64,000 bases of DNA from Armatimonadota bacterium. GTDB lineage: Bacteria; Armatimonadota; Fimbriimonadia; Fimbriimonadales; Fimbriimonadaceae. The notes below the pieces were generated by a model that saw only the letters and a list, made by a program, of their open reading frames with translations, was not told the DNA's origin and ran no database searches. Positions within the stretch are counted from its first letter, which is position 1. The number at the start of each line of letters is the position of its first letter. The DNA lies in the NCBI GenBank assembly GCA_037138755.1, contig JBAXHT010000002.1, forward strand, positions 62,001 through 126,000. Direction: 5' to 3'. Position numbers and translations under genes: made by a program. Shown here in pieces: positions 21,588-26,273 of the stretch.

Positions 21588-21599
21588 TTAACAGATAAT
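21571..21599 (+). promoter_or_regulatory. imuB promoter inside a 20-base divergent gap
   Basis: TTGATT (21571-21576), 17-base spacer, GATAAT (21594-21599). The -10 ends 8 bases before imuB ATG 21608, so the transcript is probably leaderless. The -35 lies within the first codons of the divergent GH2 gene. No GAAC-N4-GTTC or CTG-N10-CAG LexA-type operator is visible. Confidence 0.55.
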
Positions 21600-21607
21600 G
21601 TAGAACT

Positions 21608-22738
21608 ATGTCTACTCTTTTTATCGAAGTCGCGGGCTTGTACTTGGCGTGCCATGAGCCGGTTTCGCCAGCGGTGGTAGTTCGGGAGAAGGTGGTGGTG
21701 GATGCTTGTCCGGTCTCTTTGACGGCGGGGATTAAGGTTGGAATGGGGGCGGGGCAGGCTCGGGCGATTTTGCATGAGCTGATGTGTTTTGAGTTTTCTT
21801 CTTCGTTATATGAAGAGGCTTCTTGTTGTTGGTTGAATCGGTTGTGTGCAGTTTCGGATTCGGTGGAGGTGGTGGCTCCGCATCAGGCTTTTGTGGATAT
21901 GAGTGGGCATCCTGATCCTTATTTGACGGCTTTGGAGGTCTGCTATCTGTTGCCATTTGAGTATCGGGGGGCGGTTTCGGGTTGTCGGTGGGTCGCTCGA
22001 GCTTTGGCTCCTTCGTCGGGGCTGTTGCATTTTCCTCGTCCATTTGAGGCTTTGGCTCCTTATGGGTTGGATCGGCTGGAGGTGATTGAGATGGCGGTTC
22101 GGGAACGTTTGGCGTTTTTGGGATACCGGACGATTGGGGAGGTTCAGGGGCTGAGTTTGGCGACTTTGAAGTCGCAGTTTGGGCTGTACGGGCTGACGAT
22201 TCGGCAGGCGGCGATGGGGATGTTGCACGAGCCGGTGGTTGGGAATTATCCGCCTAGCGCGGTTTCTCGTCGGTTGGCTTTTGATGGTTTGTGTTCGGAT
22301 TCTTCGGTGGTTTCTTTAGGGTTGGAGAAGTTGGCGGGGGAGCTTGCTTGGGCTTTGAGCGAGGGGGATTTGGAGGCGAAGGGGTTGGAGCTATTTGTTG
22401 AGGGGGAATCGGGTGAACAGTCGTTGCGTCGGCAGTTTGGGCGAGCTTTGAACTCAGCTTTGCGGATTCGGATGGCCTTGCTGCAGTTGTGGGCGGATAT
22501 GGCGGTGACTTCGGGGGTTGTTCGCCTTCGGGCGGTGTTGCATGAGGTGGGGGCGGCTTCGCGGCGTCAAGTTTGCTTGTCGGGGTTGGTTTCGGATGCT
22601 TCGGAGTTGCCGTCGGAGGCGGTGGATCGGTTATCGCGGAAGTATGGGTCGACGGTGGTGGTGGCGGGGTCGTCAGTGAAGGTTCCTCGCCGGAAGGAGG
22701 TGTTGCGTGTGCTTCGGGCGACTACCGGATGGTACTGA
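21608..22738 (+). CDS. imuB: ImuB-like Y-family DNA polymerase homologue
   Basis: 376 aa, Y-family polymerase fold with ImuB features. The first motif reads LFIEVAGLYLACHEP where active polymerases have D-x-D-x-F-x-x-x-E; the second motif AFVDMSGHPDPYLTA lacks the catalytic SxDE. The DPO4-like landmarks CPVSLTAGIKVGMGAGQARA and FLGYRTIGEVQGLSLATL (helix-hairpin-helix) are intact. ImuB is inactive itself and recruits DnaE2 to the sliding clamp. It overlaps the dnaE2 frame by 32 bases. No imuA or lexA is nearby. Codon use is very G-rich. Confidence 0.85.
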   Translation: MSTLFIEVAGLYLACHEPVSPAVVVREKVVVDACPVSLTAGIKVGMGAGQARAILHELMCFEFSSSLYEEASCCWLNRLCAVSDSVEVVAPHQAFVDMSGHPDPYLTALEVCYLLPFEYRGAVSGCRWVARALAPSSGLLHFPRPFEALAPYGLDRLEVIEMAVRERLAFLGYRTIGEVQGLSLATLKSQFGLYGLTIRQAAMGMLHEPVVGNYPPSAVSRRLAFDGLCSDSSVVSLGLEKLAGELAWALSEGDLEAKGLELFVEGESGEQSLRRQFGRALNSALRIRMALLQLWADMAVTSGVVRLRAVLHEVGAASRRQVCLSGLVSDASELPSEAVDRLSRKYGSTVVVAGSSVKVPRRKEVLRVLRATTGWY

Positions 22739-25700
22739 CCTCTCCGCGCGGTGGCGCGAGGCTGGGGAGTGGTGGGATGGCGAATCGGCTCAGGAGTGGA
22801 TACGTTATGTGGCGGCGGGGTCCCGGCGGGAGGAGTCGTTTGATTTAGGGTTTCGGCACTTGCCGTTTGTGTCTGGTTCTTCGGAGGTTTCTGTGGATTA
22901 TTCGGAGGATTGGTCTTTGCGGGCTCGGAAACTGAGGGATGGGAAGATGAAACATCCGTTTGTTTCGGAGCCGCCACGGATGTATTCGGCATTGGCTTCT
23001 GGTTCTTGTGATGCTCCTTATGTGCCGTTGCATATTGCGTCTGGTTATGATTTTGGGCGCGGGGTGATGCTGCCGGAGGAGGCAGTTCAGTTTGCGGTGA
23101 TGAACGGGTTGCCGGGGCTTTGTATTGCTGATCGGTATTCATTAGTGGGAGCAGTGGAGCTGGCTCGGGGGTGCCGTCAGTCGGGATTGCATCCGCTTAT
23201 TGGTGCTTCATTTGAACTGGAGACGGGAGGGGAGATAGTTTTGATTGCTCAGACGACTCGGGGTTATGTCGGGTTATCTTCTTTGATTACTCGTTGTCAT
23301 TTAGATGAGGAACGACTACTGCCGATACTTCGGTTGTCTAATTTGTGGGATTCTTGTGATGATTTGATTTGTTTGATGGGTGGATCGCATGGGCCATTAC
23401 TGCCCTTGCTGCTTCGCGGTTGTTTTTCCTCGGCTTCGGAATTAGTTGGGCAGTTCCGGGAGCGATTTGGGCGGGATCGATTGTATTTGGAAGCAGATGT
23501 GGCGTACCAACCTTGGGACATCGCACATCTTCGGGGGCTGCGTCGGTTGTCTTCGGAGATGGAGGTTCCTTTGGTGGCGGGAGGGCTGGTGACTCATGCG
23601 CGGCCGCACCATTTTCCGGTTCAGGAGGTGATTGGGTGCGCGCACAATTTGAGTTTAATTCACGAGGTGAAGGGGCGAAAGCCGCGCTTTCATGAGGATG
23701 GCTTCCCTTTTCGGGCAATCAATGCGGAGCGGTTTCTTCGGACGCCATTCGAGATGCGTGAGCTGTATTCGGAGATGCCTGAGTTAGTGTCGAATACGCT
23801 TGACATCCTTACGAAGTGCGACAAGGATGTGATGCCTTCGCGTACTACTTTACCCAAGTTGTTTGATGATCCTGAAAACGCTTTACGAGAGGTGACCTAC
23901 GCGGGGGCTCATCAAAAGTATCCGCTGATGACGACGGGAATTCGGCGGCGAATTGATAAAGAGCTTGATCGTATTTGTCGTTTGAAATATGCGGATCACT
24001 TTTTGACGATTTGGGATGCTTGCCGGTGGGCTTCTCATCAGGGGTATCAATTTAGTGGGCGAGGATCAGTTGTAGATTCGGTGGTGGCTTATTGTCTCGA
24101 TCTGAGCCGAATTGATGCTTATCGACACCGTTTACACTTTGATCGGTTTTTGCCGGCGGATGGGACGAAACGACCGGATATTGATATTGATTTTCCGGCG
24201 AAGCGGCGGAATGAGGTGCGGTCTTACATGACGCAGAAGTACGGCGAGGATCGGGTGGCGACGGTGGCGGCGGTTGGGGCTTACTGCACGCGGGGGATCA
24301 TTCGGGAGGTTGGCAAGGTGTTTGGGTTGCCAGATTCGACGATTAGCTTTTTGTCGAAGCGGGTTCATGGGGGGATTGCGCCGGATAAGTTGGAGGCGGC
24401 TTTGGAGAAAAGACCAGAGTTGCGGGGGAGCAGTATTCCGAAGGAGCGATTTCGGTGGGTTTTGAGCTTAGCGGAGCGGATGATGGATATTCCGAGGAAT
24501 ATGCGGGCGCACTCTTCGGGGGTGGTGATTTCTTCGCGGCCTCTTTGTGAGACAGTGCCATTGATGTGGTCAGCGGGTGAGGATCCGGCGGGTGGTCATT
24601 TGAAGATCATCCAGTGGGATAAGCGGTCGGCGAAGCACTACTTCGACAAGTTCGATATCTTGTGCCTTCGGGGGCAGGATGTTTTGGAGGGGACTCAGGA
24701 CCGGGTGGTGGTGCGGGATCGGTCGTTTGACGTGGCTTCCATTCCCTCGGATGATCCGGATGTTTATGCGACGATGCGGTCGGGGGAGCTGATAGGGATT
24801 CCGCAGTCGGCTTCGCCAGCAATGAGGCAGGCGCATATTCGGCTGAAGACGAAGAACCTCGAAGATGCCTCACTTGTTCAGGCGGGGATTCGGCCGGGCG
24901 TTGGCGGGGCGGTGAAGCTGAATGAGATGATTGCGCGGCGGCACGGGAAGCCGTTTACGTTTTCGCATCCTGACCTGGAGGAGATTTTGGGGATTACTTA
25001 CGGGATCATCGTTTTTCAGGAGCAGGTTGACCTGTTGTTGCAGAAGTTTGCAGGGTACTCGGGCGGAGAGGCGGAAGATACTCGGGAGCAGATTCATAAG
25101 CGGCGGCGGGAGGATTTTGGGCGGGAGATTCGCGAACGGGTCCTTCAAAGGATTCAGGCGAATGGATACGGGTTGCAGGTTGCCGAAGAAGTCTTTGAGC
25201 TGATCGCGGGATTCAAAGGTTATGGCTTTGCCCAGGGGCACGCGCTGGCGTTTGCCGAGATTTCGGTGCGGTCGATCTATTGCCAGCAACACTATCCAGC
25301 GGAGTACTTCGCTTCCCTACTCGATGCTCAGCCAGCTGGTTACTACGGGCCATGTACGTTGGTGAACGAAGCTCGGAACCGGGGGGTGGCGGTTTTGCCG
25401 GTGGACGTGAATTTGAGCGAGGTGGGGTTTGCGGTGGAGGATGTGAAGTCGGTGATGGATCCACATATCGTGGTTCCGAATGGGGGGATTCGGGTGGCTT
25501 TGTCGCAGATTTCGGGCTTAAATCGGGATTTGGCTTTACGGATTGTGTTAGCTCGGCCTTATGAGAGTGTGTTTGATTTTGCGATGAAAACGAATCCTTC
25601 GCGGGATGATTTGGAGCGGTTGATATTGGTGGGGGCGTTTGATTCGTTGCATGCGAATCGGCGGCAGTTGTTGTGGGCGTTGCCGGCGATTTTGGATTAT

Positions 25701-26273
25701 GCCAGGGCGTTTAATACTCCGGGGACGTTGCCGCTGGGGGCGCCGATTCCGGTGTTGCCTTCTGATATTGCGGATTTTAACCAGGCCGAACGGGCGATTC
25801 ATGAGCGTCGGTATCTAGATTTGGATATTGACCATCACCTCATGAGCTTCGAGCGGGAGCGGGTGGCAAGCCGGGGCGGGGTGACTTCTGCGGTGGCTCG
25901 TCGGCTTGCGCATGGGCGGAAGGCGATTGTGGTGGGGAATCCGATTCGGCTGCGTTTTCCGCCGACGCCAAGTGGGCGGCGGGTGGTGTTTTTTGATTTG
26001 GAGGATGAGTCGGGGCTGCTGAACGTGACTTGTTTTGACGAGACCTATCAGCGGGATGGGCACGCGATTGTTTGCTCGCCTTATGTGACGATCATCGGGG
26101 AAGCACAGGTTCGAGATGATCATGTGGCTTTTCTGGCGTCGCGGGTTTTTCCTTATCGGCCGTTGATTACTTCTCTGTTAGGGGTTCCGGGAGCGGCGGC
26201 GACGGGTTCGAGCGACATGGGCTGGGGGCACTCGCCGTTGCCGATTGTCACTGCGGATTTTCTGGTGGGATGA
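22707..26273 (+). CDS. dnaE2: Error-prone DNA polymerase III alpha, DnaE2, with DUF6504-like leader
   Basis: Up to 1188 aa, translesion C-family polymerase. The palm motif PDIDIDFPAKRRNEV supplies two catalytic aspartates and KFDILCLRGQDVLEG the third. SGRGSVVDSVVAYCL, GYGFAQGHALAFAEIS and the C-terminal OB part follow. The PHP domain is degenerate (YVPLHIASGYDFGRG for LHCHS.YS), implying no PHP nuclease activity. Residues 5-50 (WREAGEWWDGE, then RYVAAG) resemble DUF6504, normally a separate or ImuB-terminal module. Whether translation begins at GTG 22707 or at ATG 22947 (GAGGGATGGG upstream) is unclear. Acts with ImuB. Confidence 0.9.
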   Translation: MCFGRLPDGTDLSARWREAGEWWDGESAQEWIRYVAAGSRREESFDLGFRHLPFVSGSSEVSVDYSEDWSLRARKLRDGKMKHPFVSEPPRMYSALASGSCDAPYVPLHIASGYDFGRGVMLPEEAVQFAVMNGLPGLCIADRYSLVGAVELARGCRQSGLHPLIGASFELETGGEIVLIAQTTRGYVGLSSLITRCHLDEERLLPILRLSNLWDSCDDLICLMGGSHGPLLPLLLRGCFSSASELVGQFRERFGRDRLYLEADVAYQPWDIAHLRGLRRLSSEMEVPLVAGGLVTHARPHHFPVQEVIGCAHNLSLIHEVKGRKPRFHEDGFPFRAINAERFLRTPFEMRELYSEMPELVSNTLDILTKCDKDVMPSRTTLPKLFDDPENALREVTYAGAHQKYPLMTTGIRRRIDKELDRICRLKYADHFLTIWDACRWASHQGYQFSGRGSVVDSVVAYCLDLSRIDAYRHRLHFDRFLPADGTKRPDIDIDFPAKRRNEVRSYMTQKYGEDRVATVAAVGAYCTRGIIREVGKVFGLPDSTISFLSKRVHGGIAPDKLEAALEKRPELRGSSIPKERFRWVLSLAERMMDIPRNMRAHSSGVVISSRPLCETVPLMWSAGEDPAGGHLKIIQWDKRSAKHYFDKFDILCLRGQDVLEGTQDRVVVRDRSFDVASIPSDDPDVYATMRSGELIGIPQSASPAMRQAHIRLKTKNLEDASLVQAGIRPGVGGAVKLNEMIARRHGKPFTFSHPDLEEILGITYGIIVFQEQVDLLLQKFAGYSGGEAEDTREQIHKRRREDFGREIRERVLQRIQANGYGLQVAEEVFELIAGFKGYGFAQGHALAFAEISVRSIYCQQHYPAEYFASLLDAQPAGYYGPCTLVNEARNRGVAVLPVDVNLSEVGFAVEDVKSVMDPHIVVPNGGIRVALSQISGLNRDLALRIVLARPYESVFDFAMKTNPSRDDLERLILVGAFDSLHANRRQLLWALPAILDYARAFNTPGTLPLGAPIPVLPSDIADFNQAERAIHERRYLDLDIDHHLMSFERERVASRGGVTSAVARRLAHGRKAIVVGNPIRLRFPPTPSGRRVVFFDLEDESGLLNVTCFDETYQRDGHAIVCSPYVTIIGEAQVRDDHVAFLASRVFPYRPLITSLLGVPGAAATGSSDMGWGHSPLPIVTADFLVG

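Follow-up and report, generated by a model that had tools for sequence, protein, structure and literature searches.

The locus described here lies within a 64,000-nucleotide stretch of armatimonad DNA (the window) and carries the genes imuB and dnaE2, preceded by a putative operator. The features of the locus are as follows.

21597-21618, no strand assigned: putative LexA-type operator AATGTAGAACTATGTCTACTCT (family consensus ATAGTAGACnTATGTnTACTAT), with the imuB ATG inside it
21608-22738, + strand: imuB, encoding ImuB (iPolY), a 376-amino-acid Y-family polymerase homologue that has lost its catalytic acidic residues and is without an ImuB-C domain
22568-22585, + strand: degenerate beta-clamp-like position QVCLSG of ImuB, where Q321 is invariant in alignment A5 and the hydrophobic part is not
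22613-22678, + strand: RecA-NT-like motif of ImuB (EAVDRLSRKYGSTVVVAGSSV), identified with an HMM of ImuB tails
22692-22700, + strand: Shine-Dalgarno run GGAAGGAGG for dnaE2, within imuB, with the GTG located 6 nt downstream
22707-26273, + strand: dnaE2, with a GTG start, encoding an error-prone C-family polymerase of 1188 amino acids
22737-22844, + strand: module very probably derived from ImuB-C/DUF6504, DnaE2 residues 11-46 (profile homology and AlphaFold2)
22902-22952, + strand: linker motif SEDWSLRxRKxRDxK, DnaE2 residues 66-82 (alignment A1), predicted to be disordered with pLDDT under 50
23019-23876, + strand: PHP domain with a degraded metal site (LHIAS, ADR), matching Pfam PHP at 2.7e-18 and, by Foldseek, the Pol III alpha PHP domain at 6e-21
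23880-25166, + strand: palm/thumb and finger domains (RPDIDIDF ... FDKFDILCL; Pfam DNA_pol3_alpha and DNA_pol3_finger)

The two reading frames of this Fimbriimonadaceae-type armatimonad differ, and they overlap by 32 nt (21608-22738 versus 22707-26273), as a first-pass annotation of the window had reported. Also borne out is its observation that a segment reading WREAGEWWDGE (DnaE2 residues 16-26) shares the reading frame of the polymerase without an intervening stop codon. This segment is part of approximately 100 residues that precede the PHP domain, for which the Pfam match starts at residue 108.

By Pfam, DnaE2 comprises PHP, Pol3, fingers, HhH and OB-like domains, and its polymerase active site is intact, with D491, D493 and D650 invariant in 25 sequences. 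The PHP domain carries LHIAS instead of HxHxS and ADR instead of the usual TDH, and thus the loss of the HxH motif pointed out in the first-pass annotation is genuine. However, this loss is not distinctive. The degraded metal site (LH..S, AD[R/x]) is common to the whole clade, and loss of the PHP motif is observed in most DnaE2 proteins (PMC3919608), and therefore the degradation is not special to this locus.

The ImuB protein matches Pfam IMS (1.1e-7) and, as a profile, PolIV chains (7e-33). The DE of 'SIDEAYLD' is replaced, which indicates that the Y-family catalytic acids are lost. The protein ends directly after the RecA-NT-like motif ('..ATGW*'), as do its relatives, and there is no ImuB-C domain at the C-terminus. 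When an HMM of ImuB tails is used as a query, the RecA encoded by the genome itself ranks higher than 2000 shuffles, and the aligned part of RecA is residues 20-41, which form the N-terminal oligomerization segment. The tail, with the pattern 'PRR..VL..w..aTGW', is of the type carried by iPolYs of the split layout, wherein iPolY, ImuB-C and DnaE2 are separate. A tail of this kind ('PRR..VL.eW..aTGW') was also considered as the missing first part of ImuB-C, and this was rejected because split-system iPolYs that have a complete, separate ImuB-C carry the same PRR tail (L085). Split-system armatimonads exhibit QLDLF-type motifs where the window ImuB has QVCLSG. In the genome, which is 97% complete, RecA is the sole match to the profiles NF033429 and PF00154, and no imuA was found. 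ImuA-less cassettes were already known.

Of 41 aligned loci, 38 have a 22-bp inverted repeat matching the family consensus at imuB or immediately ahead of it; at least 14 of the 22 positions match, and shuffled upstream regions reach 15 at most. In the window, an AGATAAT -10-like element abuts the operator on its upstream side, and both fall, together with the imuB start codon, in the stretch 21593-21619. Similarly, the imuB start codon of relatives often resides inside the inverted repeat, with a TATAAT-like -10 element abutting it. A start codon within the operator and an abutting -10 element suggest a leaderless mRNA under direct repression. The genome encodes LexA, the candidate protein for binding at the imuB operator, and half-sites of the form GTAGAC/TAGAC are also located ahead of lexA and recA. 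The exact sequence GTAGAN6TCTAC occurs at 3 sites in the window genome versus 5 in the control, and so is not enriched genome-wide. There are two relatives in which imuB and dnaE2 are unlinked, being located on different contigs (G006) or about 8 kb apart (G048), and each unlinked dnaE2 is immediately preceded by a GTAGAC-type box of its own. At these loci (L167, G006:C4; L168, G048:C304) the two genes would have remained in one regulon when the operon broke up.

The N-terminal module of DnaE2 is approximately 36 residues long and follows the pattern "WREaGEWW.GE..RE..R..D..G.RRE". Six of its positions (W12, E14, G16, W18, W19 and E26) are invariant in the 36 sequences of alignment A1. Changes between sister species fall mainly in third codon positions, with 17 synonymous versus 3 non-synonymous codons relative to the nearest sister. 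The invariant residues and the mainly synonymous substitutions argue that the module is not a product of chance.

DUF6504 (PF20114) is the ImuB-C domain of the literature. A Pfam scan of the N-terminal segment of the window DnaE2 gives no family at E<1, DUF6504 included. In an hhalign comparison between the module and 16 standalone DUF6504 proteins from Armatimonadota, 39 columns are aligned with a probability of 83% and P=8.6e-6. The A1 profile, searched against 291 armatimonad genomes, identifies 82 that belong to two families, and the matching open frame almost always has the size of DnaE2. Matches outside the order are to small genes or ImuB C-termini and coincide with Pfam DUF6504 in 21 genomes, the best of those at a DUF6504 locus having a value of 4.6e-11 (G219). 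On plasmid loci, the module HMM places the DUF6504 proteins of Thermaerobacter, Alicyclobacillus and D. ficus above 390 background ORFs (7e-8 to 2e-4). The D. deserti DUF6504 protein is sub-threshold, whereas the other three of these four proteins rank first. In the other armatimonads and in these three genera, ImuB-C is at the C-terminus of ImuB or has a gene to itself, frequently immediately ahead of dnaE2. There are no DUF6504 matches, and hence no standalone ImuB-C, in genome G000, where the module forms part of DnaE2 instead.

The module shares the core W..xGxWWxGE..R..R....G...E with DUF6504 by profile comparison, but it lacks the N-terminal PxxFxWRGRxYxV strands and is below Pfam detection. 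Thus, the DUF6504-like character noted in the first-pass annotation is supported by profiles, but judging from the alignments the likeness is to roughly the middle third of the domain and not to its entirety. With strand numbering taken from the alignment with DUF6504, the module would correspond to beta3-beta5 of ImuB-C. The first two strands, and probably also the last, are missing, and therefore the full binding surface may not be kept. A complete beta-barrel above the Pfam gathering score is absent from the window module; some 36 residues are kept, for which three strands are predicted. Further downstream, the linker motif, in the form (E)DWSLRxRKxRDEKVAKACG, is conserved in most family-f1 DnaE2 proteins. 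Its residues 66-82 could be what is left of the final ImuB-C strand, or they could serve as a binding peptide.

AlphaFold2 models of residues 1-400 and of full-length DnaE2, computed with relatives as the alignment, both depict the module as a three-stranded beta meander (residues 11-18, 29-36 and 39-46) at moderate confidence (pLDDT about 62-78). This is followed by a disordered linker (residues 49-100) and then by the PHP domain at high confidence. Neither model docks the module onto the PHP domain, and a Foldseek search with the DnaE2 model returns PHP and Pol III alpha matches only, with none for the module. A sequence search found no solved chains that cover ImuB-C. Likewise, neither structure searches nor PMC12926913 yielded an experimentally determined structure of a DnaE2/ImuB mutasome.

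There are two other arrangements of ImuB-C among armatimonads. Some have the canonical layout, in which ImuB ends in ImuB-C (L103-L111), and others have the split layout iPolY - ImuB-C - DnaE2 (L085, L095, L100, L118, L120, L121 and L122). The earlier statement that DUF6504 is usually separate is therefore correct for those armatimonads in which it has its own gene, but not for those that have it at the ImuB C-terminus. The seven split operons have the same gene order as the window and a near-identical style of iPolY tail (FGsqSVrlGaqLEVPRRErML). In contrast to the window, they encode a standalone full-length ImuB-C, and the DnaE2 PHP domain keeps HxH in those that were read. Two additional loci, L116 (G290) and L101 (G273), have a standalone ImuB-C and DnaE2 without a recognizable iPolY match in the stretch read.

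When the window DnaE2 is aligned to L108 and L122 by tblastn, the match runs in one frame from residue 15, inside ImuB-C, through a single stop codon and into dnaE2. This arrangement suggests that fusion needs little beyond loss of the stop codon. In a DnaE2 tree built from armatimonad sequences only, the fused proteins form one clade, with support of 100/100, relative to the canonical and split DnaE2 proteins. By these sequences, the fusion arose once, in the ancestor of two armatimonad families.

The first-pass annotation had proposed either a gene fusion or a frameshift that moved the module from the end of ImuB to DnaE2. Given the 32-nt overlap and a module located directly behind the ImuB stop codon, one might suppose that the segment is properly part of the C-terminus of ImuB and that a sequencing error or simple frameshift of one base placed it in the DnaE2 frame. 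The layout in relatives reduces the probability of this explanation to almost nil. ImuB is present in 43 of 61 related genomes, 40 loci were fetched, and DnaE2 adjoins ImuB in 37. In 36 of these 37, DnaE2 begins with the module in its own reading frame, and the exception is a 77%-complete draft (G007) in which it is in a shifted frame. The DnaE2 start lies beyond the ImuB stop codon in three relatives (L050, L060 and L069) and at that codon in another (L056). In both relatives with unlinked genes, DnaE2 begins with the module and there is no module behind ImuB, which refutes a simple frameshift. The codon-position pattern of the module also indicates selection in the DnaE2 frame. Thus, orthologues do not carry the segment at the ImuB C-terminus with one more base, and of the two proposals it is gene fusion or domain relocation that is supported. 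Programmed frameshifting within the overlap to yield an ImuB-DnaE2 fusion protein is scarcely more credible than a simple frameshift. The overlapping frames would suit such a mechanism, as would an ATG or GTG that 18 relatives share 19 nt upstream of the point where the ImuB stop codon ends. However, a strong Shine-Dalgarno sequence and a start codon are located ahead of the module, and several relatives have unlinked genes or no overlap.

Another explanation is that the N-terminal segment is a lineage-specific extension of DnaE2 unrelated to ImuB-C, wherein the W..G.WW likeness reflects convergence. The similarity spans only about 40 residues and escapes the Pfam DUF6504 model, but reciprocal profile evidence comes from many independent loci, the absence of ImuB-C from ImuB coincides precisely with the gain of the segment by DnaE2, and other armatimonads have the gene order iPolY-ImuB-C-DnaE2. 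We consequently regard convergence as very unlikely and derivation of the module from ImuB-C as highly probable, and we are nearly certain of the fusion itself. Perhaps the segment is instead a degenerate ImuB-C relic that is kept for DnaE2 translation initiation or folding, with mutasome contacts now made solely via the ImuB tail, the thumb and the PHP domain. That only about one third of ImuB-C is left and that the linker is predicted to be disordered fit this proposal. Nevertheless, we consider a relic unlikely, given that the six invariant residues persist across 36 divergent sequences, that conservation of the module is above that of the linker and that the module is kept where dnaE2 is unlinked from imuB. 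One further imuB-dnaE2 locus of the fimbriimonad type (L123) is carried by JADZEW010000023.1, which is titled 'Methanoregulaceae archaeon' and is probably a mislabelled or mis-binned MAG.

The canonical ImuA-ImuB-DnaE2 systems of Mycobacterium, Pseudomonas and Caulobacter share with the window ImuB and DnaE2 in one operon and an ImuB-C-type element. However, ImuA is absent from the window operon, and ImuB-C is shortened and has been relocated from the C-terminus of ImuB to the N-terminus of DnaE2. Known split systems (DnaE2X, the Kyrpidia tusciae operon and Deinococcus lexA-imuY-imuB-C-dnaE2) are more similar in that they also have a dead Y-family protein with a RecA-NT motif, together with ImuB-C and DnaE2 in one operon without imuA, which in the window is putatively of the SOS type. 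They differ in that ImuB-C is a separate protein rather than a truncated N-terminal part of DnaE2, and, for Deinococcus, in that lexA is outside the window operon. In Deinococcus, an unfused imuY-imuB-C-dnaE2 cassette is responsible for SOS mutagenesis (PMC8072749). Surveys from 2026 and 2019 cover split systems as well as variants without ImuA, and neither this fusion nor Armatimonadota was found in the passages searched. Literature searches also found no published account of an ImuB-C/DnaE2 fusion. Thus, the fusion of the two armatimonad families has an architecture not found in those parts of the published surveys of DnaE2 systems.

We favour, as reasonably probable with its function included, a split-ImuB (iPolY / ImuB-C / DnaE2 / RecA) mutasome whose ImuB-C has been truncated and joined to DnaE2. 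The third component of the cassette beside ImuB/iPolY and DnaE2 is most likely RecA, as the absence of ImuA and the retention of the RecA-NT motif suggest that RecA probably takes the place of ImuA. Perhaps, upon DNA damage, LexA leaves the operator and ImuB and DnaE2 are produced by coupled translation. ImuB might then bind RecA via its RecA-NT motif. The ImuB-C core, tethered in cis and held beside the PHP domain by a flexible linker of approximately 55 residues, would supply the PHP-side part of an ImuB-C/DnaE2/RecA interface that is made in trans by other mutasomes. Finally, the ImuB-RecA pair would bring the error-prone DnaE2 to the lesion and activate it. The likely role of the fusion is to keep the ImuB-C contact tethered beside the PHP domain such that ImuB and RecA can activate DnaE2. 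Weighing against this account are the shortness of the module, the lack of docking in the AlphaFold2 models, the degenerate clamp position of ImuB, the exact operator sequence that is not enriched genome-wide and the sub-threshold D. deserti match.

ImuB-C is in contact with both the PHP domain of DnaE2 and ImuA in AlphaFold models from the literature (PMC12926913). The mode of action of ImuB-C is the least understood part of the mutasome, and a fusion that keeps only the W-R-E-x-G-x-W-W core points both to the part of ImuB-C that is needed and to its site of action. It also turns a predicted protein-protein contact into one that is testable on a single polypeptide. More tentatively, ImuB-C might be reducible to a beta meander of approximately 36 residues acting in cis on DnaE2, which would make this the smallest known DnaE2 mutasome, with two encoded subunits plus RecA. 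In that case, the fusion would serve as a natural 'Rosetta-stone' for the predicted contact of ImuB-C with the PHP domain and would delimit the minimal core of that contact. We consider this reading possible, at somewhat less than even chances.

A ranking of 2042 records from a plasmid collection was sampled at 30 records spread down the list. No DnaE2 fusion was seen in this sample, and the DnaE matches start at query residue 88 or later. A cluster on the Thermomicrobium roseum plasmid NC_011961 (L163) consists of a recA-like gene, a gene for a hypothetical protein and a gene for an error-prone DNA polymerase, and it resembles an imuA3-imuB-dnaE2 cassette that carries the annotation 'recombinase A'.
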